Below, one piece after another: positions 39,306 through 64,000 of a DNA stretch of 64,000 nt. How positions within the stretch are numbered: the first letter of the stretch is position 1; every line of letters begins with the position of its first letter. A program made the translations under genes and the position numbers. The notes beneath the pieces are model-generated. The model had not been told where the DNA came from. It did no database searches and saw only the letters and a program-made list of their open reading frames with translations. This DNA is from Pseudooceanicola endophyticus (GTDB taxonomy: Bacteria > Pseudomonadota > Alphaproteobacteria > Rhodobacterales > Rhodobacteraceae): assembly GCF_018760365.1 (NCBI RefSeq), contig NZ_JAHIAB010000002.1, positions 1-64,000 of the forward strand, read 5' to 3'.

Positions 39306-39971
39306 TTACGGCTGCGCCCAGCCACGGCGGTGATGGGCGCTGTCCCAGAAGTGCCATTCGTGCCAGCTGGCGCGGGCGAAGGCGGCGTGCATCCGGGCGC
39401 GGGTTTCGGGGCTGGCGGCCCCGGCGGTGCGGTTCACCAGCGCCAGCATCTTGCGTACCCCCTCGGCGAAGGCCTCTCCGGCATAGGTGTCGATCCAGGC
39501 GCGGTAGGGGTTTTCGGGGGCGGCGGTGGTGGCGATCTGCTGGCCGATCTCGTGGTAGATCCAGAAGCAGGGCAGGATGGCGGCCAGAAGCTCGGGGAAG
39601 TCGCCCAGGGCGGCGCGCCCGGCCAGGTAGCTGACGTAGTGATCGCAGGCCTGCGAGGGGCCGGTTGCCGCGTAGTCCTGCGCGCTGACCCCGAACAGGC
39701 CCATGTAATGGGCATGCAGCCCGCGCTCGACCGCGATGGCATTGCCGGCGGACTGGGCAAGCTGCTGGATCGCTTCGGCATCGGGGGCGCGGGCGGCGGC
39801 CAGCGCCAGCACCCTGGCATAGCCCTCAAGGTAGTGGGCATCCTGGATGATGTAGCCGCGGAAGGTCTCGGGTGGCAGGGTGCCGGCGGCCAGGTCGCGG
39901 TTGAAGGGCATCTCGGCGATCTGCTGTTGCAGCTCGGCGGTGGCGGTCCAGAGGTCGTCGGTAAAGCTCAT
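39306..39971 (-). CDS. tenA: Aminopyrimidine aminohydrolase / thiaminase II (TenA)
   Basis: A 221-residue TenA. Catalytic residues fit: Asp44 (IIQDAHYLEGYARVL), Cys135 (AILPCFWIYHEIG) and the C-terminal Glu in ASWHEWHFWDSA. TenA hydrolyses 4-amino-5-aminomethyl-2-methylpyrimidine to HMP in the salvage of degraded thiamin. It overlaps thiD by 4 bp and is the last gene of the riboswitch-controlled operon, which fits a salvage role. Confidence 0.94.
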   Translation of the reverse strand: MSFTDDLWTATAELQQQIAEMPFNRDLAAGTLPPETFRGYIIQDAHYLEGYARVLALAAARAPDAEAIQQLAQSAGNAIAVERGLHAHYMGLFGVSAQDYAATGPSQACDHYVSYLAGRAALGDFPELLAAILPCFWIYHEIGQQIATTAAPENPYRAWIDTYAGEAFAEGVRKMLALVNRTAGAASPETRARMHAAFARASWHEWHFWDSAHHRRGWAQP

Positions 39972-40774
39972 GTCGGGGTCTTCTCGAGGGCGTGGAAATG
40001 ATGCACCGGGCCATGGCCGTGGCCCACGCGCAGGCGGTCCGCCCCGGCGATGGCGGCGGTGATGTAGGCCTTGGCGGCGGCGGTGGCCCGGGCCAGCGGC
40101 AGGCCGTGGCCCAGCTGGGTCGCCAGGGCCGAGGACAGCGTGCAGCCGGTGCCATGGGTGTTGGCGGTGGCGATGCGGGGCGCTTCGAAGGTCTGCTGGC
40201 CGTCGGCATCGACCAGCAGGTCGGGGCAGGCGCCGCCGGGCAGGTGGCCGCCCTTCAGCAGCACCGCACGGGGCCCAAGGGCCAGCAGGGCGCGGGCCTG
40301 CGCCTGCATCTGCGCGGGGCTGTCGGCCTCTGCGGTGTCCAGCAGGTCGGCGGCCTCGGGCAGGTTCGGGGTGATCACGCTGGCCCGCGGCAGCAGGTGG
40401 CTGCGCAGCGCTGCCACGGCCTCGGCCGCCAGCAGCCGGTCGCCGCCCTTGGCCACCATCACCGGATCCAGCACCACGGGGCAGTCCAGCCCCGCCAGCA
40501 GCTCGGCCACCAGAAGGACGATCTCGGGGCTGCCCAGCATTCCGATCTTCACCGCGTCGATGCGGATGTCGTCGCGGATCGCCTGCATCTGGGCGCGGAT
40601 CATCGCAAGGTCGGTCAGCGCCACCGCCCGCACCCCTTGGGTGTTCTGGGCGGTCAGGGCGGTGATCACGCTCATGCCGTAGCCGCCATTGGCGCCGATC
40701 GCCTTCAGGTCGGCCTGGATACCGGCCCCGCCCGAGGCATCGGATCCGGCGATGGAGAGGATATTGGGGATCAT
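39968..40774 (-). CDS. thiD: Hydroxymethylpyrimidine/phosphomethylpyrimidine kinase
   Basis: A 268-residue ribokinase-fold HMP(-P) kinase that phosphorylates the thiamin pyrimidine twice. It starts with the ThiD signature ILSIAGSDASGGAGIQADLK and continues NGGYGMSVITALTAQNTQGV, VVLDPVMVAKGGDRLL, VLLKGGHLPGG and the GTGCTLSSALAT anion hole with catalytic Asp region. It overlaps thiE and tenA by 4 bp each. Confidence 0.95.
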   Translation of the reverse strand: MIPNILSIAGSDASGGAGIQADLKAIGANGGYGMSVITALTAQNTQGVRAVALTDLAMIRAQMQAIRDDIRIDAVKIGMLGSPEIVLLVAELLAGLDCPVVLDPVMVAKGGDRLLAAEAVAALRSHLLPRASVITPNLPEAADLLDTAEADSPAQMQAQARALLALGPRAVLLKGGHLPGGACPDLLVDADGQQTFEAPRIATANTHGTGCTLSSALATQLGHGLPLARATAAAKAYITAAIAGADRLRVGHGHGPVHHFHALEKTPT

Positions 40775-41385
40775 GCGCGGCTCCAGGCTTGCAGGATTTC
40801 GGCGGTGGCAAGCCCCATGTCCGGCGCCCTTGAGATCGCCGAGACGACGGCCATGCCGGCGGCACCGGCGGCCTTCAGCGGCGCGGTGTCGGCATGGGTC
40901 AGCCCGCCGATGGCCAGGCAGGGCAGGGCGGTGCGGGCGATGATCCGCGCCGCGCCTTCCAGCCCCAGCGGCGTGGCATGGTCCGACTTGCTGGCGGTGG
41001 CGCGCACCGGGCCGATGCCCAGGTAATCGACGATGCCTTCGGGGATCGCGGCCAGCTGGGCGTCGGTATCGACGGACAGGCCCAGGATCATCTCGGGTCC
41101 GATCAGGTCGCGGATCAGCGCCGGGTCGCCATCGCTCTGGCCGATGTGCAGCCCGTCGGTGCGCAGCGCCAGCGCCACGTCGACCCGGTCATTGAGGAAC
41201 AGCTTCGCGCCCAGCGGCGCCAGCCGGTCCGACATCTCGCGCGCGAGGCGGGCAAAGTCGGCATCGGCCAGCGTCTTGTCGCGCAGCTGGATCCAGGGCG
41301 CCCCGGCGCGGGCCGCGGCCTCGGCCTGGGCCAGGGCAGAGCGCGGCGCACCGGCATCGGTGATGAAGCAGAGCGGGGGGATCAT
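40771..41385 (-). CDS. thiE: Thiamine phosphate synthase
   Basis: A 204-residue TIM-barrel enzyme joining HMP-PP and HET-P to thiamin phosphate. Motifs: PWIQLRDKTLADADFARLAR, LFLNDRVDVALALRTDGLHI, YLGIGPVRATASKSDHATPL and LAIGGLTHADTAPLKAAGAA with a phosphate-binding C-terminal glycine. ATG at 41385 overlaps thiM by 4 bp. Confidence 0.95.
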   Translation of the reverse strand: MIPPLCFITDAGAPRSALAQAEAAARAGAPWIQLRDKTLADADFARLAREMSDRLAPLGAKLFLNDRVDVALALRTDGLHIGQSDGDPALIRDLIGPEMILGLSVDTDAQLAAIPEGIVDYLGIGPVRATASKSDHATPLGLEGAARIIARTALPCLAIGGLTHADTAPLKAAGAAGMAVVSAISRAPDMGLATAEILQAWSRA

Positions 41386-42191
41386 GCGGGGATCTCCTCG
41401 ATCCGGGCGCCGGCGGTCAGGTCGTTGGGGCCAAGCGCGTGCAGCGCATCCAGGAAGGCTACCTGGAAACTGCCGGGACCCTCGGCGCTGCGGCCCGCGA
41501 CCTCTCCGGCAAGGCCGTAATAGGCCAGCGCGCCAAGGGTGGCGCGGAACGGATCCTGATCCACGGTGAAGGCTGCGACCAGGCCGGTCAGCGCGCAACC
41601 CAGGGCGGTGACGCGCGGCATCATCGGATGGCCGTTGCGGATGCGGGCCGCGCGGTGGCCGTCGGTGACGAAATCCACCGGCCCGGTCACCGCGACGGTG
41701 CAGCCTGCCTGCAGGGCAAGACGGGTCGCGGCGGCCTCTGCCTCGGCCACGCTGTCGGCGGCATCGGCGCCGCGCCCGGCACGCAGCTGCCCCGCCAGCG
41801 CCAGCACCTCGGAGGCATTGCCGCGGATCACGCTGGGCCGCAGCGCCAGCAGCCGCGCCCCGAGGGTGCGGCGAAAGCCCGTGGCCCCCACCGCCACCGG
41901 GTCCAGCACCCAGGGCTTGCCGCCGGCCACGGAGGCGGTCGCGGCGGCTTCCATCGCGCCGCTCCAGGCCGGGTCGGCAGTGCCGATATTGATGCTGAGG
42001 GCCTGGGCGATACCGGCGAATTCCGCCGCCTCGGCGCTGGAATGCACCATCGCCGGAGAGGCGCCCGCCGCCAGCATCACGTTGGCCTGAATGTTCATGG
42101 CCACGAAATTGGTGATGTTCTGCACCAGCGGCGCCGTGGCCCGCATATGCGCCAATGTCTCGGAAAGTCGTGTCTCGGTCAGCTCGGTCAT
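41382..42191 (-). CDS. thiM: Hydroxyethylthiazole kinase
   Basis: A 269-residue ThiM that phosphorylates hydroxyethylthiazole from salvage. Blocks: PLVQNITNFVAMNIQANVML near the start, ANVMLAAGASPAMVHSSAEA, NIGTADPAWSGAMEAAATAS, PWVLDPVAVGATGFRR, VIRGNASEVLALAGQ and VTALGCALTGLVAAF with the catalytic Cys. First gene of the thiM-thiE-thiD-tenA operon, 68 bp downstream of the TPP riboswitch. Confidence 0.95.
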   Translation of the reverse strand: MTELTETRLSETLAHMRATAPLVQNITNFVAMNIQANVMLAAGASPAMVHSSAEAAEFAGIAQALSINIGTADPAWSGAMEAAATASVAGGKPWVLDPVAVGATGFRRTLGARLLALRPSVIRGNASEVLALAGQLRAGRGADAADSVAEAEAAATRLALQAGCTVAVTGPVDFVTDGHRAARIRNGHPMMPRVTALGCALTGLVAAFTVDQDPFRATLGALAYYGLAGEVAGRSAEGPGSFQVAFLDALHALGPNDLTAGARIEEIPA

Positions 42192-42259
42192 GGCGCTCCT
42201 CTTTCTCGCACATGATGAGCGGCAAGAAAGAGCCGGGACCTGAGGCGCATTGGCGGGGT

Positions 42260-42340
42260 CCCTGCGCCTCCCTCCGCCAGCATTATCTGGTTCAGGTTCA
42301 AAGGGTCCGTCTCAGCCTGTGGGGCGCCCCTGTCGCAGGG
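42260..42340 (-). promoter_or_regulatory. TPP riboswitch (THI element)
   Basis: The minus strand shows the conserved TPP aptamer: GGCTGAGA (42310-42317), ACCCTTTGAACCTGA, CCAGATAATGCTGGCGGAGG, closed by a P1-like stem CCCTGCG/CGCAGGG (42334-42340 with 42260-42266). It lies upstream of thiM. Downstream of the aptamer, 42192-42259 contains GC-rich sequence that may sequester the thiM ribosome-binding site when TPP binds. Confidence 0.95.
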
Positions 42341-42617
42341 GCAGGTGTTTCACAGCGCTGCCCGGCTGTCAAAGCGTAACGGTGCCGAACCGGGCGGCGG
42401 GGCATTTTCCCTTTGCTTCCAGTTGGCTGCCTGACCGGTGCGCGCAGCGCTCCGGCCTCTGCCGGGATCACGGGATTGCCCAAGGGTTAGGCAGCTCCCT
42501 GACCGGAAAGTCAAAAAATGACCCGTTGCGGGAAATATCCCGTGTCCTGTTGCGAATTTCGGTCGCATGCGCCCTGACGCCCGCCAAGGCTGGGCCTACA
42601 GGACAGGGAGATACAAC
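42341..42617. other. Shared promoter region of thi operon and NMT1-type operon
   Basis: No gene is seen. Towards the importer it holds the dyads GTCA-AAAAA-TGAC (42509-42521) and CGGGA-AATA-TCCCG (42530-42543), possible operators for the plus-strand operon. A second aptamer for the plus strand was looked for and not found. GACAGGGAG precedes the ATG at 42618. Confidence 0.4.
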
Positions 42618-43604
42618 ATGTTCCGGACTCACCTCGCTTCGGCGGCCGCGCTTCTGGCGATGGCGGCCCCTCTGGCGGCGCAGGACCTCACCAAGGTGAC
42701 CTTCGGCACCAACTGGGTGGCCGAAGCCGAGCACGGCGGCTTCTATCAGGCCGTGGTGGATGGCACCTACAAGGATTGCGGCCTGGATGTGACCATCCTG
42801 CCCGGCGGTCCCCAGGTGAACAACCAGGCCCTGCTGCTGGCCGGCAAGATCGACTTCTACATGGGCTCGACCCTGGGCGCCTTCTTCGGCGTCGAACAGG
42901 ACCTGCCGCTGGTCGATGTGGCAGCGCTGTTCCAGAAGGACCCGCAGGTCCTGCTGACCCACCCGGGCAAGGCCAAGACCTTCGAGGATCTGAAGCCGAT
43001 GAAGATGATCGTGGCCGATGCCACGCCCTATTACAGCTGGCTGAAGGCGGCCTACGGCTTCACCGACGAGCAGCGCCAGACCTATACCTTCAACTCGGCC
43101 CCCTTCATCGTGGACGAGAATGCCGCCCAGCAGGGCTATGTCTCCTCCGAGCCGTTCTCCATCAAGCAGCAGACCGGCTGGGCGCCGGATGTCTGGCTGC
43201 TGGCCGACCATGGCTACACCGCCTATGCGACGACGATCCAGACCATGCAGGGCACCATCGACAAGTCTCCTGAGGTTGTTCAGTGCTTCGTCGATGGCTC
43301 GATCAAGGGCTGGTACAACTACCTCTACGGGGATCGCTCGAAGACCGATGCGATGATCAAGGAGGTGAACCCCGACATGTCCCAGGAGGCCATCGACTAC
43401 GCCGTGCAGGCGATGAAGGACCAGGGCATCGTGGATTCGGGCGATGCGCTGACCCTGGGCATCGGTGCCATCACCGACGCCCGCGAAAAGGACTTCTACG
43501 ACAAGATGGTCGAGGGCGGCGTCGTGAAGGCGGGCCTGGATATCTCCAAGGCCTACACGAAGCAGTTCGTGGACAAGGGCGTCGGCATGGATCTGAAGAA
43601 GTAA
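42618..43604 (+). CDS. NMT1/THI5-like ABC transporter substrate-binding protein
   Basis: A 328-residue periplasmic binding protein with signal peptide MFRTHLASAAALLAMAAPLA. The NMT1 domain begins KVTFGTNWVAEAEHGGFYQA, then LDVTILPGGPQVNNQALLLA and KIDFYMGSTLGAFFGVEQ. Relatives bind pyrimidines (ThiY: formylaminopyrimidine), nitrate-like anions or aromatic acids. The position opposite thiMED-tenA suggests a pyrimidine-type ligand, but a riboswitch is lacking on this side. First gene of a nine-gene operon. Confidence 0.9.
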   Translation: MFRTHLASAAALLAMAAPLAAQDLTKVTFGTNWVAEAEHGGFYQAVVDGTYKDCGLDVTILPGGPQVNNQALLLAGKIDFYMGSTLGAFFGVEQDLPLVDVAALFQKDPQVLLTHPGKAKTFEDLKPMKMIVADATPYYSWLKAAYGFTDEQRQTYTFNSAPFIVDENAAQQGYVSSEPFSIKQQTGWAPDVWLLADHGYTAYATTIQTMQGTIDKSPEVVQCFVDGSIKGWYNYLYGDRSKTDAMIKEVNPDMSQEAIDYAVQAMKDQGIVDSGDALTLGIGAITDAREKDFYDKMVEGGVVKAGLDISKAYTKQFVDKGVGMDLKK

Positions 43605-43608
43605 CCTT

Positions 43609-44394
43609 ATGATCGCTGACCTCGGAAACCGCGCGCCGATCCTGAACGTCCGTTCTGTCGACAAGACGTTCAACAAGGGGGTCGTCGCGCTCCGCCGGTT
43701 GTCCCTGACGGTGAACGAGGGCGATTTCATCTCGCTCCTCGGCCCGTCGGGCTGCGGCAAATCCACGGCCCTGCGCCTGATCGCAGGGCTGATGGAGCCC
43801 TCCATCGGCAAGATCGACTGGACCGGGGGGCAGGGCGCCGACGATCTGGGCGTGGTGTTCCAGGAACCGACCCTGATGCCCTGGGCGACGGTGGCCAAGA
43901 ACGTCTGGACGCCGTTCCGCCTGCGCGGCCAGTCGTTCCGCTCCGTGAAGGACCGGATCGAGGAGGCGCTCTCTCTCGTCGGGCTTGAGAAATTCGCCAA
44001 TGCCTATCCGCGCGAGCTGTCGGGCGGCATGAAGATGCGGGTCTCCATCGCCCGCGCGCTGGTCACCCGACCGCGCCTGATCCTGATGGACGAACCCTTT
44101 GCGGCTCTGGACGAGATCACCCGCCAGAAGCTGAACGACGACCTGCTGAACCTGAAGGCGCGCACCGGGGCGACGGTGATCTTCGTCACCCATTCGGTCT
44201 TCGAAAGCGTCTTCCTGTCGGACCGCATCCTGGTGATGGCCGCCCGCCCGGGCCGCATCATCAAGGAGATCCAGGTCCCCGAACCCTATCCCCGCGGCAT
44301 CGAATGGCGCACCTCGGCGGAATATGCCCGCATCGCGCGCGAGACCTCGGACACGCTGCACGGCGCCACCGGCGCCACGGAGGCCGCAGAATGA
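43609..44394 (+). CDS. ABC transporter ATP-binding protein (NitT/TauT/ThiZ type)
   Basis: A 261-residue ATPase: Walker [10 protein letters not shown] (45-53), VVFQEPTLMPWATVAKNVWT, signature LSGGMKMRVSIARA, Walker B LILMDEPFAALDE and H-loop FVTHSVFESVFLSDR. The subfamily is that of nitrate, taurine and thiamin-precursor importers. It is 4 bp behind the binding protein and overlaps the permease by 4 bp. Confidence 0.93.
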   Translation: MIADLGNRAPILNVRSVDKTFNKGVVALRRLSLTVNEGDFISLLGPSGCGKSTALRLIAGLMEPSIGKIDWTGGQGADDLGVVFQEPTLMPWATVAKNVWTPFRLRGQSFRSVKDRIEEALSLVGLEKFANAYPRELSGGMKMRVSIARALVTRPRLILMDEPFAALDEITRQKLNDDLLNLKARTGATVIFVTHSVFESVFLSDRILVMAARPGRIIKEIQVPEPYPRGIEWRTSAEYARIARETSDTLHGATGATEAAE

Positions 44395-45260
44395 GCCTGA
44401 CCGACACCACCCCCGCCGCCGAACCCATTGAAGGGCCCCTGCACGACGCCCAGGAAGAGCGCAAGGCCCGGCGCAAGAAGATGGAGAAGATCGCCAAATA
44501 CGTGCTGCCCGTCCTCGTGATGGCGCTGGCGATCTGGTACTGGGACCGGCTGGTGGTCTGGAACAACATCCCGAAATACATCCTGCCCGGCCCGGGGCTG
44601 GTGATGAAGACGCTGTTTTCCGACTGGGGCATCCTGTCCTCGGCGCTGCTGGTGACGCTGAAGATCACCGCCATGGCGCTGGGCGTCGCGGTGATCGGGG
44701 GGGTGGCGATCGCGGTCATCTTCTCGCTCTCGCGCTTTGCCGAGATGTCCTTTGCCCCCTTCGCGGTTATCCTTCAGGTGACGCCCATCGTCTCGATCGC
44801 GCCGCTGATCTTCATCTACATCGACAACCGCTTCATCGCGCTGCTGTTCTGCGCCTGGATCGTGGCCTTCTTCCCGATCCTGTCGAACACCACGCTGGGG
44901 CTGAAATCGGTCGATCACAACCTGTCGGACCTGATGACCATCTACCGCGCCAACCGCTGGCAGCGGCTGCGCTACCTGCAACTGCCCTCGGCGCTGCCCT
45001 ATTTCATGGGCGGGCTGCGCATCGCGGGCGGTCTGGCGCTGATCGGCGCGGTGGTCGCGGAATACATCGCCGGCACCGGCGGCATCGGGTCGGGGCTGGC
45101 GTTCCGCATCCTGGAGGCCAGCTACCGGCTGAACATCCCCCGCATGTTCGCGGGGCTGATCCTGATCGCGGCAACCGGGGTGATCATCTACGGGCTGACC
45201 TCGCTGGTCAGCTGGCTGGCGCTGCGCAAGTGGCACGAAAGTGCGCTGAACCGAGAGTAA
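44391..45260 (+). CDS. ABC transporter permease (NitT/TauT/ThiX type)
   Basis: A 289-residue permease with a charged N-terminal stretch (EERKARRKKMEKIAKY), first TM at about 38-55, and five further segments including AMALGVAVIGGVAIAVIFSL and AFFPILSNTTLGLKSVDHNL. The EAA-like loop is MTIYRANRWQRLRYLQLPSA. It completes the importer with the two preceding genes, starting in an ATGA overlap. Confidence 0.92.
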   Translation: MSLTDTTPAAEPIEGPLHDAQEERKARRKKMEKIAKYVLPVLVMALAIWYWDRLVVWNNIPKYILPGPGLVMKTLFSDWGILSSALLVTLKITAMALGVAVIGGVAIAVIFSLSRFAEMSFAPFAVILQVTPIVSIAPLIFIYIDNRFIALLFCAWIVAFFPILSNTTLGLKSVDHNLSDLMTIYRANRWQRLRYLQLPSALPYFMGGLRIAGGLALIGAVVAEYIAGTGGIGSGLAFRILEASYRLNIPRMFAGLILIAATGVIIYGLTSLVSWLALRKWHESALNRE

Positions 45261-45264
45261 AGAC

Positions 45265-46533
45265 ATGGCACTTCCCAAACTTCCCGGCGGCCCCGTCCGG
45301 CTGACCAATCTTTCCGTGCCCGGCTACCTGGTGGGGGCAAGCACGCCCTTCGCGCCGGCCTCCGTCGCGATCCGGGACGGAAAGTTCACCGCCGACACCA
45401 CCGGCCTGCCGCAGATCGACATGCGGGGCGCCATCGCCTTCCCCCGCTTCGTCGAGGCGCATACCCACCTCGACAAGGGGCACATCACGCCCCGGATGCC
45501 GAACCCCACGGGCACCTTCGAGGGCGCGCTTGGCGCCGTGGGCGCCGATGCCGCCGCCCGCTGGACCACCGAGGACGTGCGCGCCCGCATGACCTTCGCG
45601 CTGAAATCGGCCTATGCCCATGGCACCGGCGCGATCCGCACCCATCTGGACAGCCAGCCGCCCAAGGACGGCATCGCCTGGCCGCTCTTTGCCGAGGTGC
45701 GCGCGGAATGGGCCGACCGGATCGCGCTACAGGCCTCCTGCCTGGTGACCTGCCTTTACCTGACCGACCCGGCCTTCCAGGGTACGGCGGACTGGGTGGC
45801 GAAGACCGGTGGCATCCTGGGCGCGGTGACCTATCCCAACCCCGATCTTCAGGCGCAGCTGGATATCTTCTTTGATACGGCGGATGCGCGCGGCCTGCAC
45901 ACCGACATCCATGTCGATGAAACCATGGACCCGACCGTCAACACCCTGCGCGACATCGCGAAGACGGTGCTGGCGCGCGGCTATGACCGCAAGCTTCAGG
46001 TCGGCCATGTCTGCTCGCTGTCCACCATGCCCGAGAAGGAGGCGCTGGAGACCCTCGACCTGGTGGCTGAGGCCGGGATCGACGTGGTTTCCCTGCCGAT
46101 GTGCAACCTCTACCTTCAGGACCGCCACGCCGGGCGCACGCCCAGGAACCGCGGCATCACCCTGGTGCACGAGATGGTCGAACGCGGCATCAACGTCTCG
46201 TTTGCCTCCGACAACACCCGCGACCCGTTCTACGCCTATGGCGATCTGGACATGATCGAGGTGATGCGCGAGGCGATGCGGATCGGCCATCTGGACCATT
46301 CCGACTACCCCTGGTTCCGCAGCTTCCTGGCGAACCCCGCCGCCGCCTGCGGCTTCGACACCCCCGATTTCGCCCCGGGCAAGCGCGCCGACATGGTGAT
46401 CTGCAATGCCCGCAACTGGACCGAGCTGTTCTCGCGTCCGCAACATGACCGCCTCGTGATGGTGGGAGGCGCCTGCATCGACACGACGCTGCCCGATTAC
46501 GAGGACCTCGACGACATCATGAGGATCGCCTGA
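45265..46533 (+). CDS. CodA-like amidohydrolase (cytosine deaminase family)
   Basis: A 422-residue amidohydrolase. Its metal and catalytic residues follow E. coli CodA spacing: His66 and His68 (VEAHTHLDKGH), His216 and Glu219 (TDIHVDETMD), His248 (KLQVGHVCSLS) and Asp316 (SFASDNTRDPFYAYG). It should hydrolyse an amino-N-heterocycle or related ring. The remainder diverges from housekeeping CodA, so the substrate is probably not cytosine itself. It follows the permease by 4 bp; the gene order implies action on the imported compound. Confidence 0.88.
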   Translation: MALPKLPGGPVRLTNLSVPGYLVGASTPFAPASVAIRDGKFTADTTGLPQIDMRGAIAFPRFVEAHTHLDKGHITPRMPNPTGTFEGALGAVGADAAARWTTEDVRARMTFALKSAYAHGTGAIRTHLDSQPPKDGIAWPLFAEVRAEWADRIALQASCLVTCLYLTDPAFQGTADWVAKTGGILGAVTYPNPDLQAQLDIFFDTADARGLHTDIHVDETMDPTVNTLRDIAKTVLARGYDRKLQVGHVCSLSTMPEKEALETLDLVAEAGIDVVSLPMCNLYLQDRHAGRTPRNRGITLVHEMVERGINVSFASDNTRDPFYAYGDLDMIEVMREAMRIGHLDHSDYPWFRSFLANPAAACGFDTPDFAPGKRADMVICNARNWTELFSRPQHDRLVMVGGACIDTTLPDYEDLDDIMRIA

Positions 46534-46534
46534 C

Positions 46535-47932
46535 ATGGACCTCGACGGCTGCATCAAAGCCCTTTCGCACCTCGACCTCGACACCAAGCCGGTTTCGGTG
46601 AAGGCCAAGAGCCGGGATTTCTTCTGGTATTCGCCCGTGCTGAAGGCGCGGCTGGATCACGTCACGGCGGATTTCGTCGTCTCGCCCACCTCCGAGGCCG
46701 AGGTGATCGAGGTGCTGAAGACCTGCTATGCCCATGACGTGCCGGTCACCGCGCGCGGCACCGGCACCGGCAACTACGGCCAGGCCATGCCGCTGGCGGG
46801 GGGCTGCGTGCTGAACCTCGCCAACATGAACAAGGTGAAGGAGATCCGCCCCGGTTCCGTCGTGGTCGAACCCGGCGCCGTGCTGCGCGACCTCGATGCC
46901 GCCTGCAAGGGCGACAGCGGGCAGGAGCTGCGCATGTTCTCCTCCACCTGGGCGACCGCGACCATCGGCGGCTTTGTCGCCGGGGGCTCCGGCGGGGTCG
47001 GGGGCATCCGCTGGGGGTCCTTGCGCGATCCCGGAAACATCATCCGCCTGCGCGTCGTGACCATGGAGGCCGAGCCGCAGATCCAGGAGATCACCGGAGA
47101 GGACCTGACCCGCGTTGCCCATGCCTATGGCACCAACGGCATCATCACCGAGCTGGAGATGCCGCTGACCGCCGCCTACGACTGGGTCGGCATGTTCGTG
47201 ACCTTCCCCGATTTCGGTGAAGCGCTGCGCTATGCCTACGATCTGGCCAGCCAGGACGGCATCCTGCTGAAGCTGATCTCGGTCTTCGAACCGCCCGTCG
47301 CGCATGACTACTTCCTGCGGGTGAAACCCCATGTGACGCCCGATCAGACGGTGCTGGCGATCATGGTGGCGCCGCAGTCGATGGCAGGCTTTGAAACCTT
47401 CACCGCCCGCCACGCGGGCGCCGAGGTGATCTACCGCAGCGATCAGACGCAGTGGACCAAGGCGCCCGGTCATGTCTTCGAATACGGCTGGAACCACACC
47501 ACCCTGCGCGCGATGAAGATCGACCCCTCGATCACCTATCTGCAAACCTCCTACGGGACCGAGGATCCGGTGGCGAAGGTGCTGGAGGCGCGCGCGGCCT
47601 TCTCGCCCGAATGCCTCCAGCATATCGAGGTGACGCGCAGCGGTGGCCGCGTGAACATGGCCGGGCTGACGCTGGTCAAGTTCACCACCGAAGAACGCCT
47701 GGACGCCATCGTCGCCGAGCACGAGGCGATGGGCATCCCGAACTTCAACCCGCACCGCTACACGCTGGAAGAGGGCGGGCGGCAGGCCACCGATGCCCGC
47801 CAGCTGGAATTCAAGCGCCAGGTCGATCCCAAGGGTCTGCTGAACCCGGGCAAGATGATCTCCTGGGATGATCCCGACTGGGGCTATGAGACGATGTACG
47901 CCTGGCCGGGGCTTCGGAAGGCGGCCGAGTGA
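46535..47932 (+). CDS. FAD-binding oxidoreductase (FAD_binding_4, GlcD/VAO family)
   Basis: A 465-residue flavoprotein of the VAO/PCMH fold. The FAD-binding part is about 40-215 (VPVTARGTGTGNYGQAMPLA, ATIGGFVAGGSGGVGGIRWG, VAHAYGTNGIITELEMPLT); the C-terminal cap ends with HRYTLEEGG and DPKGLLNPGKMI, the GlcD-type tail. No oxygenase or molybdenum partner is present. It starts 1 bp after the amidohydrolase stop and overlaps the next gene. Probable oxidation of the ring product. Confidence 0.87.
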   Translation: MDLDGCIKALSHLDLDTKPVSVKAKSRDFFWYSPVLKARLDHVTADFVVSPTSEAEVIEVLKTCYAHDVPVTARGTGTGNYGQAMPLAGGCVLNLANMNKVKEIRPGSVVVEPGAVLRDLDAACKGDSGQELRMFSSTWATATIGGFVAGGSGGVGGIRWGSLRDPGNIIRLRVVTMEAEPQIQEITGEDLTRVAHAYGTNGIITELEMPLTAAYDWVGMFVTFPDFGEALRYAYDLASQDGILLKLISVFEPPVAHDYFLRVKPHVTPDQTVLAIMVAPQSMAGFETFTARHAGAEVIYRSDQTQWTKAPGHVFEYGWNHTTLRAMKIDPSITYLQTSYGTEDPVAKVLEARAAFSPECLQHIEVTRSGGRVNMAGLTLVKFTTEERLDAIVAEHEAMGIPNFNPHRYTLEEGGRQATDARQLEFKRQVDPKGLLNPGKMISWDDPDWGYETMYAWPGLRKAAE

Positions 47933-48516
47933 TGGGACGCCGCGCGCTGGTGGTCTATGCCCACCCCTGCGAGGAAAGCTTTGCCGGGGCGCTGCATGCG
48001 CAGACCGTGGCGGGCCTGTCGAAAGGGGGGTGGGAGGTCGATGACTGCGATCTTTATGCCGAGGGGTTCAGCCCGGTGCTGACCGCCGAGGAGCGCCGCA
48101 ATTATCACAACCTCGACGTCAACACCCTGCCGGTGCAGGGCTACGTGGACCGCCTGCGCGCCGCCGATGCGCTGATCCTCGTCTTCCCGGTGTGGAACAT
48201 GTACTACCCGGCGATGCTGAAGGGCTTCTTCGACCGGGTCTATTTGCCGGGCGTCTCCTTCAAGATGCAGAACGGGGTGACGGTGCCGGCGCTGTCGAAC
48301 ATCCGCAAGCTGGGCGCGGTCTGCACCTATGGGGGCGCGCGCTGGAAGGCGCGGCTGGCGGGCGATCCGCCGCGCCGCGCGGTGATGCGGGCGGCCTGGG
48401 GCTCGACCCGGCTGGCCTCGCGCCGCTTCCTGGCCCTCTACGACATGAACCGGGCCACCGAGGTGCGCCGCAAGGCCTTCCTTGGTCAGGTCGGACAGGA
48501 AATGGAGACCTTCTGA
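47932..48516 (+). CDS. NAD(P)H-dependent oxidoreductase, flavodoxin_2 fold (first copy)
   Basis: A 194-residue FMN/FAD-binding protein of the NQO1/MdaB/KefF type: RALVVYAHPCEESFAGALHA, VDDCDLYAEGFSPVLTAEER, ALILVFPVWNMYYPAMLKGF (cofactor loop) and RKLGAVCTYGGARW. The ATG at 47932 overlaps the previous stop; a GTG at 47929 in the same frame is an alternative. It probably reduces a quinone-like, nitro or ring intermediate with NAD(P)H. The next gene is a paralogue. Confidence 0.87.
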   Translation: MGRRALVVYAHPCEESFAGALHAQTVAGLSKGGWEVDDCDLYAEGFSPVLTAEERRNYHNLDVNTLPVQGYVDRLRAADALILVFPVWNMYYPAMLKGFFDRVYLPGVSFKMQNGVTVPALSNIRKLGAVCTYGGARWKARLAGDPPRRAVMRAAWGSTRLASRRFLALYDMNRATEVRRKAFLGQVGQEMETF

Positions 48517-49136
48517 TGAAGGCGCTCGTCGTCTATTGCCACCCTTCCGGCGAAAGCTTCACCGCCGGGATCCGGGACCTTGTCCTGAAGCACCTGAGCG
48601 AGGCCGGGGCCGAGATCCGCCTGCGCGACCTTTACGCCGAGGGGTTCGATCCGGTGCTGCCGCTGCCGGAATGGACCGGCTACCTGGAGACGCCGGCGAA
48701 CCGTGCCCCGGTCGAAGACCACTGCGCCGATCTGGAATGGTGCGACACGCTGATCTTCGTCTACCCGACCTGGTGGTACGGGTTGCCGGCGATGCTGAAA
48801 GGCTGGCTGGACCGGGTGTTCCTGCCCGACGTGGCCTTCCTGATGCCCAAGGCGGACGGAGAGGTCATCCGCCCCGGCCTGCATCACATCACCCGCCTTG
48901 GCATCTTCACCACCTGCGGCGCCTCCTGGTGGCTGACGCGCTTTGTCGGCGCGCCGGGACGGCGCACCATCGCGCGCGGCCTCGGCCTGCTGCTGCACCG
49001 GCGCGCCCGCCGCGCCTTCGCTGCCCATTACCTGATGGACAGCTCCACCCCGGAAAGCCGCCGGAAGCACCTCGCGCGGGTGTCGCGCCAGATGACCCGC
49101 CTCCTGCGGCCGCTGAAACAAGGATCCCAGACATGA
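48516..49136 (+). CDS. NAD(P)H-dependent oxidoreductase, flavodoxin_2 fold (second copy)
   Basis: A 206-residue paralogue of the preceding gene: MKALVVYCHPSGESFTAGIR, IRLRDLYAEGFDPVLPLPEW, TLIFVYPTWWYGLPAMLKGW and RLGIFTTCGASWW. Divergence between the two copies is clearly high, pointing to distinct roles or a heterodimer. Start and stop overlap their neighbours (TGATG and ATGA), so expression is coupled. Confidence 0.87.
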   Translation: MKALVVYCHPSGESFTAGIRDLVLKHLSEAGAEIRLRDLYAEGFDPVLPLPEWTGYLETPANRAPVEDHCADLEWCDTLIFVYPTWWYGLPAMLKGWLDRVFLPDVAFLMPKADGEVIRPGLHHITRLGIFTTCGASWWLTRFVGAPGRRTIARGLGLLLHRRARRAFAAHYLMDSSTPESRRKHLARVSRQMTRLLRPLKQGSQT

Positions 49137-49927
49137 GCGCCCGCGACTGGAAAGAGTTCCGCGCCCCCGAGTTCATCGGCCTCGACCCGATGAAGACCAT
49201 CGCCGTCCTGCCCGTCGCCGCGATCGAGCAGCACGGGCCGCATCTGCCGGTCGGCACCGACACGATCATCAACGAGGGCAACCTGGCCCTGCTGAAGCAA
49301 CGCGCCCCCGCCGACATGGACATCCGCATCCTGCCGGTGCAGGCGGTCGGCAAGTCGAACGAGCACCTCTGGGCCGCCGGGACCATCACGCTGTCGGCGG
49401 AAACCGCCCTGCGCGCCTGGACCGAAATCGGGCTGTCCGTCGCCCGCGCCGGCATCCGCAAGCTGGTGATCATGAATTCCCACGGCGGCAATGCCGACCT
49501 GATCTCCATCGTCTCGCGCGAGCTGCGGGTGCAGGCGGGGATGTTCTGCGTGCGCCTTGGCTGGGGCGCCACCGGCGGGCCGCAGGGCCTTTATTCCGAG
49601 CAGGAGCGTACCTACGGCATCCACGGCGGCGACAGCGAGACCAGCCAGGTGCTGAACTTTGCCCCGAACTGCGTTGAGATGTCCTTGGCCGAGGATTTCC
49701 GATCCTCCGCCGAGACCTCGCTGTTCTCTCCGATCGGGCCGGTGGCCTATGGCTGGACGGCGGCGGACTGCAACCCGAAGGGCGTTGTGGGCGAGGCTCA
49801 TCTTGCAACCGCAGAAAAGGGTGCGACCCACGCGGAGACCGTCGTCGATGGCATGATCGCCCTGCTGCGCAAGGTCGAAGCCCAGTCGCTGGACGGTTTT
49901 GCCCCGGCCATGGCGCCGGGGCTCTGA
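49133..49927 (+). CDS. Creatininase-family amidohydrolase
   Basis: A 264-residue creatininase-fold metal enzyme. Metal residues occur as Glu32 and His34 in AAIEQHGPHLPVGTD with Asp43, plus MNSHGGNADLIS and GIHGGDSETSQVL. The family includes creatininase and the archaeal ArfB formamide hydrolase acting on a formylaminopyrimidine, so hydrolysis of a cyclic or formyl amide is plausible. Last gene of the operon, followed by a strong terminator. Confidence 0.9.
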   Translation: MSARDWKEFRAPEFIGLDPMKTIAVLPVAAIEQHGPHLPVGTDTIINEGNLALLKQRAPADMDIRILPVQAVGKSNEHLWAAGTITLSAETALRAWTEIGLSVARAGIRKLVIMNSHGGNADLISIVSRELRVQAGMFCVRLGWGATGGPQGLYSEQERTYGIHGGDSETSQVLNFAPNCVEMSLAEDFRSSAETSLFSPIGPVAYGWTAADCNPKGVVGEAHLATAEKGATHAETVVDGMIALLRKVEAQSLDGFAPAMAPGL

Positions 49928-49930
49928 TCA

Positions 49931-49964
49931 CCGGGCCGGGCGGGGCCATTTCCGCCCGGCCCGG
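49931..49964 (+). terminator. Terminator of the NMT1-type operon
   Basis: CCGGGCCGGGCGG (49931-49943) pairs perfectly with CCGCCCGGCCCGG (49952-49964), 13 bp with an 8-nt loop, 4 bp after the creatininase gene. TTTATCC follows at about 11 bp. It marks the operon end. Confidence 0.75.
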
Positions 49965-51951: not shown

Positions 51952-52068
51952 GCGCGCGGCGCGGCCATTCCACGCAGCCCCGGCCCCCGAAGGGCCTCCG
52001 GATGCCGCTACGTCTTGCACCCCCGGAAAAAGTCTGGAAGCTTTCAAGGCAGTAACCGGAGTAGTGCC

Positions 52069-53820
52069 TTGCAGACGACCGAGTCCTCCTCGACCTTCCG
52101 CCACAAGCTGGAATCCCTGGTGCGGCAGATCTATCCGGATCAGGACGTGCCGGCCCTCTCCCAGGCGCTGATCACCGCCTTCTGGCCCGAGGACAGCAGC
52201 CGCCGCAAGCGCGGTCGCGTGCCCGGCAACCGGCAGTGGTCCGAACGCGACGCCCTGGTCATCACCTATGGCAACTCCATCGTCGATGGCCAGCACAAGC
52301 CCCTGGACCTGCTGCGGGATTTCCTGACCAACCGGCTGTCGGGCGTGGTCAACGGGGTCCATATCCTGCCCTTCTTCCCCTATACGTCCGACGACGGTTT
52401 CGCGGTGACGGATTATCGCGCGGTGAACCCGATCCTGGGCGACTGGTCCGACATTCGCCGCATCGGCGAGGAATTCCTGCTGATGTCGGACCTGGTGCTG
52501 AACCATGTCTCCAGCTCCTCGGCCTGGTTCAACGCCTACCGCCAGGGCCATCCGCCCTATGACCGTTTCTTCTTCGAGGCATCCCCCGGCGAGGACCTCT
52601 CGATGGTGGTGCGTCCGCGCACCCACCCGCTGCTGCGCGAGGTCTCGACCGCGAACGGGACCAAGCATGTCTGGTGCACCTTCAGCCACGACCAGGTGGA
52701 TCTGGACTTCCGCAACCCCGAGGTGCTGAAGGAATTCCTGCGGGTGATGCGGCTGCATGTCGACAACGGGGTGCGCATCATCCGCCTCGATGCGGTGGCC
52801 TTCCTGTGGAAGGAGGTGGGCACGAAATGCATCCACCTTCCCCAGACCCATGCCATCATCCGGCTGATGCGGCTGTTCTTCGACTATGCCTCGGAAAGCC
52901 TGATCCTGCTGACCGAGACCAACGTGCCGAACGCGGAAAACCTCTCCTACTTCGGCAACCGCAACGAGGCCCACGCGGTCTACAACTTCTCGCTGCCGCC
53001 GCTGATCCTGCATGCCATGCTGGCGGGCACGGCAAAGAACCTGATCCGCTGGCAGGCGACCATGCCGCCGGCGCAGCTGGGCTGTGCCTATCTGAACTTC
53101 ACCGCCTCCCACGACGGGATCGGGATGCGCCCCGCCGAAGGCATCCTCAAGCCCGAGGACACCGCCCGCGTCATCCAGTCGATCCGCGATTTCGGCGGTC
53201 GCGTGTCGATGCGGGCGCTGCCCGATGGCGGTGAAAGCCCCTATGAGCTCAACATCACCTGGTTCGAGGCGATGAAGGGCACCTTCGCGGGCGAGGACGG
53301 GCACCAGCTGGAGCGTTTCCTGGCTTCCCAGACCATGATGATGGCGCTGGAAGGCATTCCCGCCTTCTACATCCACGCGCTGCTCGGCACGCCCAACGAT
53401 CAGGAAGGGGTCGAGAAATCCGGTCACAACCGGGCAATCAACCGCCGCCGCTGGGATTACCGGGAGCTGCTGGACCTGCTCGACGATCCCGCCTCGACCC
53501 AGGCGCAGGTGCTCTCGGAAATGCGCCGCCGCATCGGCGTGCGCCGCCGCCAGCGCGCCTTTCACCCCAATGCCACCCAGTTCACCCTGCAGGTCGATGA
53601 CCGCATCTTCGGCCTCTGGCGTCAGAGCCTCGATCGGGACCAGTCGATCTTCGCGCTGCACAACGTGTCCGATGCGACGATCGAGATCGACCCGCTGGCG
53701 ATCAACCTCATCGACGGAGAGGATTGGATCGATCTGCTCAGCGACGAGACGATCAATCCCGGCGGAGCGCCGATTTCCTTCGCGCCCTATCAGTGCCGGT
53801 GGATCACCAACCGGGGCTGA
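52069..53820 (+). CDS. GH13_18 phosphorylase (sucrose/glucosylglycerate phosphorylase-like)
   Basis: A 583-residue alpha-amylase-family phosphorylase of the sucrose-phosphorylase subfamily. Catalytic residues: nucleophile Asp241 (RIIRLDAVAFLWKEVG), acid/base Glu284 (LLTETNVPNAENLSYFG), stabiliser Asp349 (FTASHDGIGMRP). The opposite-strand neighbours make glucosylglycerate, so glucosylglycerate phosphorylase (releasing glucose 1-phosphate and glycerate) is more likely than sucrose phosphorylase. Start TTG at 52069 has GGAG 8 bp upstream. The gene is convergent with gpgS. Compatible-solute turnover inferred. Confidence 0.88.
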   Translation: MQTTESSSTFRHKLESLVRQIYPDQDVPALSQALITAFWPEDSSRRKRGRVPGNRQWSERDALVITYGNSIVDGQHKPLDLLRDFLTNRLSGVVNGVHILPFFPYTSDDGFAVTDYRAVNPILGDWSDIRRIGEEFLLMSDLVLNHVSSSSAWFNAYRQGHPPYDRFFFEASPGEDLSMVVRPRTHPLLREVSTANGTKHVWCTFSHDQVDLDFRNPEVLKEFLRVMRLHVDNGVRIIRLDAVAFLWKEVGTKCIHLPQTHAIIRLMRLFFDYASESLILLTETNVPNAENLSYFGNRNEAHAVYNFSLPPLILHAMLAGTAKNLIRWQATMPPAQLGCAYLNFTASHDGIGMRPAEGILKPEDTARVIQSIRDFGGRVSMRALPDGGESPYELNITWFEAMKGTFAGEDGHQLERFLASQTMMMALEGIPAFYIHALLGTPNDQEGVEKSGHNRAINRRRWDYRELLDLLDDPASTQAQVLSEMRRRIGVRRRQRAFHPNATQFTLQVDDRIFGLWRQSLDRDQSIFALHNVSDATIEIDPLAINLIDGEDWIDLLSDETINPGGAPISFAPYQCRWITNRG

Positions 53821-61909: not shown

Positions 61910-64000
61910 ATGGCCGGCTTTCCCACCTCAGCCCGGGTTGTCATCATCGGCGGAGGCGTGGTCGGCGTCTCGGCGCTCTATCACCTGGCCCGCGCCGGCT
62001 GGAGCGATTGCGTCCTGCTGGAGAAGAACGAGCTGACGGCGGGATCGACCTGGCATGCGGCGGGCAATGTGCCGACCTTTTCGGGGGACTGGGCGCTGAT
62101 GAACATGCAGCGCTATTCAGCCGAGCTGTATCGCCGCCTTGGCGCCGAGGTCGATTACCCGATGAACTACCATGTAACGGGCTCTGTCCGGCTGGGGCAC
62201 AGTGCCGACCGGCTGGAGGAATTCCGCCGCGTCGTCGGCATGGGGCGGCGCCAGGGCATGGGGATGGAGATCCTCTCGCCCGGGGATCTGAAGGGGCGCT
62301 ATCCCTTCGTGGAGACCGGCGGGCTGACCGGCGCGCTATATGATCCGAACGACGGTGATATCGACCCCGCGCAGCTGACCCAGGCGCTGGCCAAGGGCGC
62401 GCGGGCCGCCGGCGCCCGGATCGAGCGCTTCTGCCCCGCCACCGGCGTGCGCCGGGAGGGCGAGGACTGGGTGGTCGAGACCCAGAAGGGAGAGATCCGC
62501 TGCGAGATCGTCGTCAATGCCGCTGGCTACTATGCCGCCGAGGTCGCCCGCTGGTTCGGCCGCCGCCTGCCGATGGTGGTGATGAGCCATCAGTACCTGC
62601 TGTTCGACACCGTGCCCGAGCTGGAAAGCTGGTCGCGCGAGGTCGGTCACAAGCTGCCGCTGCTGCGCGATGTCGATGACAGCTACTACCTGCGGCAGGA
62701 GAAATACGGCTTCAACCTCGGGCCCTATGAATCCGCCTGCAAGGCGCACTGGATCACCCCCGAGGATCCCTTCCCGCAGGATTTCAGCTTTCAGCTGTTT
62801 CCCGATGATCTGGACCGGCTGGAGCCGCAGATCGCCGCCGCCATGGGGCGCGTGCCGCTGCTGGAACAGGCCGCACTGACCCGGGTGATCAACGGCCCGA
62901 TCCCCTATACGCCCGATGGCAACCCGCTGATCGGCCCGATGCCCGGGGTGCCCAATGCCTACGAGGCCTGCGTATTCACCTTCGGGATCTGCCAGGGCGG
63001 CGGCGCCGGCAAGGCGCTGGCGGAATGGATCACCGAGGGGCGCACGGAATGGGACATGTGGTCCTGCGACCCGCGTCGCTTCACCGGCTTCGAGGAGCCC
63101 GATTATGCCATCGCCAAGGGCAAGGAGATCTATGGCAACGAATATGCCATCCATTACCCGCACCATGTCTGGCCGGCGGCGCGCGACCGCAAGTGCTCGC
63201 CCCTGCATGAGGCGCTGAAGGCACGTGGCGCGCAGTTCGGCCCCTTCAACGGCTGGGAGCGCGCGCTGTGGTTTGCCCGCCCGGGCGATGACACCTCAGA
63301 GGCGGCGCAGCGCACCTGGCGTCGGGACGGCCCCTGGGAAGGTGCCGTGGCCGAGGAGGCCCGCGCGGTGCGGGATCATGCCGGGGTGCTGGACCTGCCG
63401 GGGTTCTCGCGCTTCCGCCTCAGCGGGGCGGGGGCGGCGGAGTGGCTGGCGCGGCAGATCACCGGGCGGGTGCCGCAGCCCGGGCGGCTGGGGCTGGGTT
63501 ACTTCGCCGATGAAACCGGCGGCATCGTGACCGAGATGTCGATGGCCTGTCTGGCCCCCGATACCTTCTGGCTGATCACCGCCGCCACCGCCCAGTCCCA
63601 TGACCGCGACTGGCTGATGAAGCATCTGGAGCCGGGGCTGGAGCTGCGGGACGAGACCGCGGACTGGACCACCCTGATCCTGACCGGCCCGAAGGCGCGC
63701 GATCTGCTGGCGCCGCTCAGTGATGCGGATCTCTCGCTTCCCTGGCTCAGCCTTCAGGAGGCGCAGGTGGCGGGCCGTCCGGTGCAACTGATCCGCGTCA
63801 GCTTCGCCGGAGAGCTGGGCTGGGAGCTGCACGCGCGCCCCGAAGACGCGCCGGCGCTGTGGGACGCTCTGGTGGCGGCAGGGGTGCGGCCCTTCGGGAT
63901 GTTCGCCCTCGACAGCCTGCGGATCGAGAAGGGCTATCGCGGCTGGAAGACCGATCTTTCCACCGAATACAGCGTGCTTCAGGCGGGGCTGGGCCGTTTC
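61910..64000 (+). CDS. Dimethylglycine/sarcosine dehydrogenase-like FAD protein with aminomethyltransferase domain (3' end outside window)
   Basis: About 697 codons visible. The N-terminal DAO domain starts VVIIGGGVVGVSALYHLARA and has STWHAAGNVPTFSG, the covalent-FAD-type site of DMGDH. An FAO_M-like middle part follows (GYRG-type region near RRFTGFEEPDYAIAKGKEIY). From about residue 440 the GcvT-like folate domain begins (FNGWERALWFA, LDLPGFSRFRLSGAGAAEWL). Such proteins demethylate dimethylglycine, sarcosine or related N-methyl compounds, passing the methylene to tetrahydrofolate. ATG at 61910 with GGAG 6 bp upstream. The last visible residues are LSTEYSVLQAGLGRF. Confidence 0.9.
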   Translation, partial: MAGFPTSARVVIIGGGVVGVSALYHLARAGWSDCVLLEKNELTAGSTWHAAGNVPTFSGDWALMNMQRYSAELYRRLGAEVDYPMNYHVTGSVRLGHSADRLEEFRRVVGMGRRQGMGMEILSPGDLKGRYPFVETGGLTGALYDPNDGDIDPAQLTQALAKGARAAGARIERFCPATGVRREGEDWVVETQKGEIRCEIVVNAAGYYAAEVARWFGRRLPMVVMSHQYLLFDTVPELESWSREVGHKLPLLRDVDDSYYLRQEKYGFNLGPYESACKAHWITPEDPFPQDFSFQLFPDDLDRLEPQIAAAMGRVPLLEQAALTRVINGPIPYTPDGNPLIGPMPGVPNAYEACVFTFGICQGGGAGKALAEWITEGRTEWDMWSCDPRRFTGFEEPDYAIAKGKEIYGNEYAIHYPHHVWPAARDRKCSPLHEALKARGAQFGPFNGWERALWFARPGDDTSEAAQRTWRRDGPWEGAVAEEARAVRDHAGVLDLPGFSRFRLSGAGAAEWLARQITGRVPQPGRLGLGYFADETGGIVTEMSMACLAPDTFWLITAATAQSHDRDWLMKHLEPGLELRDETADWTTLILTGPKARDLLAPLSDADLSLPWLSLQEAQVAGRPVQLIRVSFAGELGWELHARPEDAPALWDALVAAGVRPFGMFALDSLRIEKGYRGWKTDLSTEYSVLQAGLGRF

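Follow-up and report, generated by a model that had tools for sequence, protein, structure and literature searches.

A conserved eight-gene operon of Pseudooceanicola endophyticus with a probable role in the uptake and breakdown of the pterin ring of folate

An operon of eight genes, located at positions 42618-49927 on the forward strand of a 64,000-nucleotide stretch of DNA from Pseudooceanicola endophyticus (hereafter, the window), combines three genes for an NMT1-type importer with genes for a CodA-like deaminase, a FAD oxidoreductase, two NQO-like reductases and a creatininase-family hydrolase. On balance, we favor the view that this operon serves to take up and degrade the pterin (pteridine) ring, whether from folate itself or from its oxidation products; this substrate is drawn from the title of a single structure deposit (PDB: 6v42), and the individual steps are proposed from the protein families involved. 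The view is supported by the homology between the FAD protein and 6v42, the gene content around the nearest row to 6v42 in a tree, the synteny of the operon across related genomes, and a deaminase that has no equivalent of the Gln156 of cytosine deaminase. Further support comes from the pterin deaminase and "endoribonuclease" genes described in Variovorax, in the part of the source available to us (PMC9513972), and from a weak score of the hydrolase against the ArfB model.

A pterin deaminase takes part in the degradation of folate by bacteria (You et al. 2022, PMC9513972), and the available part of that account follows folate as far as deaminopteroic acid and terms the later steps elusive. 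The operon thus offers a testable gene set for these later steps of folate breakdown, in culturable strains, and links a flavoenzyme of solved structure, 6v42, to its likely partner genes. Our search of the open-licence literature recovered no publication on the operon.

Results and discussion

Organization of the operon

All eight genes lie on the forward strand. The first three encode the solute-binding protein of an NMT1/THI5-like ABC importer (42618..43604; Pfam NMT1, 1.4e-18, with weak PDB matches to NMT1/THI5-type proteins), the ATPase (43609..44394; Pfam ABC_tran, 3.2e-32, and no NCBIfam model at its cut-off among the 25 listed) and the permease (44391..45260; Pfam BPD_transp_1, 3.5e-20). 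They are followed by a CodA-like amidohydrolase, the proposed pterin deaminase (45265..46533; NF005759 "cytosine deaminase", 561.7 bits against a cut-off of 403), and by the FAD oxidoreductase related to 6v42 (46535..47932; phmmer score 560 bits). Two flavodoxin-fold NAD(P)H reductases of the NQO-like type come next (47932..48516; Pfam Flavodoxin_2, 1.7e-26, and 48516..49136; Pfam Flavodoxin_2, 8.3e-30, the latter with PDB matches to NQO1 and NQO2), which share 40% identity with each other, and the series ends with a creatininase-family amidohydrolase (49133..49927; Pfam Creatininase, 2.8e-63).

The coordinates, the strand and, through Pfam and NCBIfam profile matches, the protein families given in a preliminary description made from the sequence alone were all borne out; its count of nine genes has to be lowered to eight. 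A query with the 2OG-Fe(II) oxygenase found in many relatives returned no convincing match to a ninth gene in the window (best E 0.25). The tight packing described earlier is real, with an overlap or a gap of at most 4 nt at every junction read from the sequence. The binding-protein gene stops at 43604, 4 nt short of the ATPase start at 43609; the ATPase and permease genes overlap by 4 nt (44391-44394); a gap of 4 nt separates the permease stop (45260) from the deaminase start (45265), and one of 1 nt the deaminase stop (46533) from the start of the FAD gene (46535). A single nucleotide is shared by the FAD gene and the first reductase gene (position 47932), and another by the two reductase genes (position 48516), while the second reductase and creatininase-family genes overlap by 4 nt (49133-49136).

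Beyond the creatininase-family gene, RNA folding predicts a strong forward-strand hairpin at 49931..49964, with a 14-bp stem (arms 49931-49944 and 49951-49964) and a 6-nt loop; the 66-nt stretch that holds it folds at -39.6 kcal/mol (z -3.7). The terminator scan returned no site at 49931-49964; no T-run lies 3' of the stem. Of the "strong terminator" previously placed here the strong hairpin stands, and its designation as a terminator was not confirmed.

Conservation and accessory genes

The six core genes keep their order and strand in 52 of the 56 relatives whose loci are completely spanned, and the deaminases of the relatives are 54-68% identical to that of the window. The arrangement is therefore not due to chance: the same gene set recurs as a neighborhood, and an accidental grouping, which the preliminary description had named as a way in which its proposal might fail, is not borne out. 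Its notion of a single unit for the uptake and breakdown of an N-heterocycle is likewise supported.

Two further genes accompany the operon in many of the 56 complete relatives: a divergent RidA gene adjoins it in 40, and an extra 2OG-Fe(II) oxygenase gene is present in 34. The window operon has neither. The best match to the oxygenase elsewhere in the same genome was set aside, as it reached 42% identity, compared with 53-89% among the operon copies. The two RidA proteins that were scanned are both named Endoribonuclease L-PSP by Pfam. A gene specific to folate did not turn up next to the operon, which counts against the pterin view: one M20 peptidase query, tried as such a neighbor, matched its own source and nothing else among 100 loci, a search that remote peptidases would escape. 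PaoABC-type genes were observed close to two Rhizobiaceae operons, L086 and L114, with homologues in L046, and are too few to weigh.

The FAD oxidoreductase and its relationship to 6v42

The top PDB match of the FAD protein is 6v42 (56% identity, TM 0.94/0.93), followed at a distance by a match of 22% identity. The deposit title of 6v42 reads "flavin oxygenase ... involved in folate catabolism", and the earlier statement that no pathway with such a gene set had been described accordingly needs correcting; we found no publication on 6v42/6v43 in the open-licence literature. A tree of 52 rows unites 6v42 with the window protein in a 29-row clade with support of 100/100, within which the proteins of the window and other Rhodobacterales form a sub-clade separate from 6v42/6v43. 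6v42 retains every one of the 60 residues that are invariant across 25 FAD proteins (60/60); these indicate family and not substrate, since remote paralogues have them too. The row nearest to 6v42, L163 (support 99/94), comes from the same kind of operon as that of the window: its locus encodes a binding protein, a deaminase, the FAD protein, two reductases, a creatininase-family protein and a RidA protein. The gene set around the window FAD gene thus matches that around the row nearest to 6v42. The family relationship with 6v42 is clear, and the window protein may oxidize a folate-derived pterin or lumazine.

The most serious competing explanation, which we regard as less likely, is that the operon degrades some other N-heterocycle, such as another bicyclic ring, a purine-like one or a cyclic amidine, and that the substrate of the window enzyme differs from that of 6v42. 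The two proteins are, after all, only 56% identical, and FAD paralogues of 35-47% identity occur in clusters with other gene sets. Of the related clusters that combine a FAD protein, a creatininase-family protein and an NMT1 importer, those of Klebsiella and Pantoea also carry a PDR/VanB family oxidoreductase, and the extra genes among L124, L126, L162 and L164 are of the isochorismatase-domain, S15 peptidase-like, cupin or ureidoglycolate-lyase kinds. However, the FAD proteins of Klebsiella, Pantoea and these four loci all lie outside the 29-row clade that unites the window with 6v42. One of the paralogues, from a Nitratireductor locus (L112) with adjoining ureidoglycolate lyase and hydantoinase genes, does fall inside that clade, but its branch is long and its placement weakly supported (84/60). 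The boundary is also approached from the other side by L121 and L123, which have the importer, deaminase and reductase as in the window, yet whose FAD proteins fall just outside the clade. The common gene set around the window protein and the nearest row to 6v42 further argues against a different ring.

The relationship to thiamin

In the window the operon lies divergent from thiMED-tenA and its TPP riboswitch, and its importer belongs to the NMT1/THI5 family. These features would suit the earlier guess of a thiamin-derived pyrimidine as the substrate, such that HMP or a formylaminopyrimidine would be imported and the deaminase would act on its 4-amino group for salvage or breakdown. In two Paracoccus loci, thiD lies 3-4 kb downstream of the operon and is preceded by a TPP riboswitch of its own. 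However, these two are the only ones among 65 related loci with thi genes nearby, the usual divergent neighbor is RidA, and the 6v42 title names folate, not thiamin. The window riboswitch (42252-42341, reverse strand) precedes thiM and reads away from the operon, and an Rfam scan of 21 related loci revealed no riboswitch ahead of the operon in any of them. A thiamin-derived substrate consequently appears improbable, though the broader idea of a pyrimidine-like ring fits well enough, a pterin being a fused pyrimidine.

The CodA-like deaminase

The structure model of the deaminase matches both the E. coli cytosine deaminase (PDB: 1k6w) and the 5-methylcytosine deaminase (PDB: 4r7w), with which it shares the amidohydrolase fold, the His/His/His/Asp ligands and the catalytic Glu at an identity of about 24%. 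The metal-binding and catalytic residues H66, H68, H216, E219, H248 and D316 are invariant in 23/23 homologues. In contrast, position 162, which aligns with Gln156 of the E. coli enzyme, is occupied by T, S, G, A, P, L, M or H and in none of the 23 by Gln, nor is Gln found at positions 161 and 163. We take Gln156 to be the residue that reads the cytosine pyrimidine. The equivalents of D314 and W319, which we likewise assume to be functional residues of cytosine deaminase, are Asn and Phe. We dropped the label "cytosine deaminase" (NF005759) on account of the Gln156 position, and some of the genes that now bear this name may, as these observations suggest, act on another ring. Ordinary use of cytosine or 5-methylcytosine, which the above-cut-off NF005759 match and the nearest folds would favor, is the least probable reading of all, given the low identity to those enzymes, the absence of Gln in 23/23 and, as we see it, the lack of any use for the FAD enzyme, the creatininase-family enzyme and the two reductases.

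Two pterin deaminases have been characterized, Arad3529 and that of Variovorax. The published primer pattern for the Variovorax gene did not occur in any of 299 genomes, all from one family. With a Pantoea deaminase as query, 6 of 40 large genomes of the same family matched, and the end peptides of the Variovorax deaminase occurred in none of the loci compared with them.

The creatininase-family hydrolase

This protein is related by sequence to creatininase (PDB: 1j2t, 1q3k), ArfB and MftE, and scores below the cut-offs of the NCBIfam models for creatininase (70.4 bits against 235), MftE (87 bits against 172), IolN and ArfB, the named formylaminopyrimidine deformylase (a weak 21.7 bits against 180). 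Its residues E32, H34, D43 and H117 align with the creatininase motif, whereas Gly119 stands in place of Glu122 of creatininase, presumably a metal ligand. Creatininase proper was rejected on account of the score and this replacement.

A proposed pathway and comparison with known systems

Under the pterin interpretation, the NMT1-type importer would bring a pterin-type compound into the cell, and the CodA-like enzyme would remove the exocyclic 2-amino group, converting pterin to lumazine. The FAD enzyme, a relative of 6v42, might then oxidize the pyrazine part, and the creatininase-family enzyme could hydrolyze the resulting amide to yield a diaminopyrimidine. The two NQO-like reductases may supply reduced flavin or re-reduce quinonoid pterin or diaminopyrimidine intermediates. 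The set is probably completed by two partners that co-occur with the operon: RidA and, in a good part of the relatives, the 2OG-Fe(II) oxygenase, which would act on a side chain. More tentatively, one might envisage a whole undescribed route for the folate ring in Rhodobacterales and rhizobia, comprising an importer, a pterin deaminase, a flavin oxygenase and a ring-opening amidohydrolase, with an NQO-type pair that keeps 5,6-diaminopyrimidine or quinonoid intermediates reduced and an optional 2OG oxygenase to determine the range of side chains; we consider this possible without expecting it in full.

The closest described system is that of Variovorax sp. F1, in which folic acid is degraded by carboxypeptidase G and a pterin deaminase (PMC9513972). 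The part of that account available to us makes no mention of an importer, a flavin oxygenase or a creatininase-family step, and the window operon would differ in these respects. The two systems would be alike in the pterin deaminase, which is a proposed assignment in the window, and in the RidA-type genes that adjoin the operon in many relatives of the window: in V. paradoxus, according to the same partial source, "endoribonuclease" genes are conserved downstream of the pterin deaminase gene.

Organization and conservation of the operon

The operon comprises eight genes on the forward strand (42618-49927), and not the nine of the preliminary description. Pfam and NCBIfam assign them, in order, to an NMT1-type binding protein, an ABC ATPase, an ABC permease, a CodA-like amidohydrolase (here the deaminase), an FAD_binding_4 oxidoreductase (the FAD protein), two Flavodoxin_2 proteins (the reductases) and a creatininase-family protein. 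Each junction is an overlap or a gap of 1 or 4 nt, in keeping with the tight packing reported earlier; of the strong terminator claimed, the strong hairpin 3' of the last gene stands, but it lacks the T-run typical of an intrinsic terminator. A long ORF at 52015-53820 (forward strand) resembles, by eye, a GH13 sucrose-phosphorylase-type enzyme.

A deaminase scan of genome contigs recovered 65 loci (56 spanned completely, 9 cut by a contig end), titled as Rhodobacterales-type genera, which we take to belong to that order, or as Rhodobacteraceae, Paracoccaceae or Alphaproteobacteria assemblies. Genes were counted as present if they lay no more than 6.5 kb from the deaminase and matched at 45% identity or above (50% for the reductases). 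The genes for the binding protein, ATPase, permease, deaminase, FAD protein and creatininase-family protein occur on the same strand and in the same order in 52 of the 56 spanned loci, the kind of conserved neighborhood for which the preliminary description had proposed a search; both reductases were detected in 46. Among the exceptions, L024 yielded the deaminase alone and L029 just the deaminase, the second reductase and an oxygenase, and at these thresholds the creatininase gene was undetected in L036 and L038. The FAD protein is encoded, at E <= 1e-100, by 33 of 196 genomes sampled evenly from the order, with identity reaching 60% or above in 29; at the level of the class, 17 of 385 sampled genomes have it (both counts include the window genome).

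A 2OG-Fe(II) oxygenase gene belongs to the cluster in 34 of the 56 loci, immediately preceding the creatininase gene wherever both occur; a scanned copy has DIOX_N and 2OG-FeII_Oxy domains. A homology query found none in the window, and the best match elsewhere in that genome is 42% identical. Likewise, a RidA gene lies divergently upstream of the binding protein gene in 40/56 loci, a position occupied in the window by thiM and a TPP riboswitch; two scanned RidA proteins bear the Pfam name Endoribonuclease L-PSP. A RidA homologue, 55% identical to that of a related operon, is situated ~35 kb further along the window contig, with no operon genes seen adjoining it.

The deaminase

The window deaminase scores 561.7 bits against the NCBIfam cytosine deaminase model (cut-off 403), and structurally it is closest to cytosine and 5-methylcytosine deaminases (~24% identity). 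Across 23/23 homologues, neither the metal ligands nor the catalytic Glu and His vary. In the alignment, the site equivalent to Gln156 of E. coli cytosine deaminase, presumably the residue that reads cytosine, is occupied by Thr, Ser, Gly, Ala, Pro, Leu, Met or His. Because it is Gln in none of the 23, the cytosine deaminase label is doubtful, and the substrate is likely to be a different ring. The same model scores best for all ten deaminases of related clusters, at least five exceeding its cut-off and the remainder falling below. On Rhizobium and Agrobacterium plasmids (L115, L134), an annotated cytosine deaminase gene adjoins genes for an ABC importer, a 2OG oxygenase and a LysR protein, and the genes listed for the stretch include no FAD-binding oxidoreductase; the L115 protein passes the NCBIfam model (NF005759).

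The FAD protein and its relatives

The AlphaFold2 model of the window FAD protein (mean pLDDT 88.6) has as its top PDB match 6v42 (56% identity, TM 0.94), the runner-up being 22% identical. The 6v42 deposit is titled 'Crystal structure of the flavin oxygenase with cofactor bound involved in folate catabolism'. In a 52-row tree, a 29-row clade with 100/100 support unites 6v42, the window protein, the other Rhodobacterales copies chosen for the tree and proteins of Rhizobium, Agrobacterium and other alphaproteobacteria, leaving outside the paralogues of Klebsiella, Pantoea, Comamonadaceae and the window genome's second cluster. The Nitratireductor protein L112, from a differing cluster, falls inside on a long branch, and the L121 and L123 proteins lie just outside though their clusters resemble that of the window; both placements are against a clean line. 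The row closest to 6v42 (support 99/94) is L163, whose locus encodes a binding protein, a deaminase, an FAD protein, two reductases, a creatininase-family protein and RidA. Since this nearest row sits in a matching gene set, the enzyme solved as 6v42 is probably encoded in an operon of this type. All 60 residues invariant across 25 FAD proteins are retained in 6v42, an alignment result that shows kinship of family and not of substrate.

A stretch of the window at 61910-64000 (forward strand), continuing past its end, matches a DAO/GCV_T oxidase encoded near the L163 operon, with 68% identity across 704 residues. The second cluster of the window genome (contig C45, locus L088, 7398-12302, reverse strand) encodes a creatininase-family protein (42%), an FAD protein 36% identical to that of the window, a binding protein, a permease and an ATPase; the gene upstream resembles, by eye, a LysR regulator. 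In L125, three FAD proteins of this family stand in tandem in one genome (~8864 to beyond 11607), and the branch of one is very long. An isochorismatase-domain gene is common to FAD clusters L124, L126, L162 and L164 (58-65% identical to that of L162), and an S15 peptidase-like gene to L124, L125, L126 and L162 (45-49%); these five clusters possibly represent another N-heterocycle pathway.

A candidate pterin catabolic pathway

What the data establish is which genes are present, what families they belong to, that their order is conserved, and that the FAD protein is related to 6v42 at the family level. That the operon serves pterin catabolism we favor by a modest step beyond even chances, a substrate reading that hangs on the wording of one deposit title, that of 6v42; weighing the placement of L112 lowered our confidence very slightly. 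Most of the remaining probability goes to action on another N-heterocycle. Also counting against the pterin reading, FAD paralogues occur in clusters with differing gene sets, and our one query for a folate-specific gene, an M20 peptidase, found none adjoining the operon. The thiamin breakdown product guessed at in the preliminary description, from the thiM-thiE-thiD-tenA set (39306-42191, reverse strand) that lies divergent from the operon behind its TPP riboswitch (42252-42341, reverse strand), is rejected, as the four thi genes found matches in just two of 134 loci searched (L031 and L070, both Paracoccus, with TPP riboswitches 3-4 kb beyond the last operon gene, ahead of thiD) and no riboswitch precedes the operon in any of 21 related loci at Rfam's own thresholds; we take the adjacency in the window to be accidental.

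Under the pterin reading, the importer would bring in a pterin, hydrolytic deamination at C2 would convert it to a lumazine, and flavin-dependent oxidation of the pyrazine ring followed by amide hydrolysis would yield a diaminopyrimidine. The two NQO-like reductases might reduce quinonoid intermediates or supply reduced flavin, RidA might hydrolyze an imine or enamine, and the 2OG enzyme, where present, might oxidize a side chain.

Comparison with known systems

No account of either the operon or 6v42 emerged from our searches of the open-licence literature. In Variovorax sp. F1, carboxypeptidase G and a pterin deaminase degrade folate, and in V. paradoxus 'endoribonuclease' genes are conserved downstream of predicted pterin deaminase genes; that report leaves open the steps after the deaminase (PMC9513972).

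The window's creatininase-family protein falls far under the cut-offs of the creatininase, MftE and IolN models and scores weakly against the model for ArfB, by its name a formylaminopyrimidine deformylase-type amide hydrolase of the same family; by analogy, ArfB-like amide hydrolysis would at least be chemistry of a suitable kind once a pterin has been opened. It keeps the family-motif residues Glu32, His34, Asp43 and His117, and differs from creatininase in having Gly119 at the place of creatininase Glu122.
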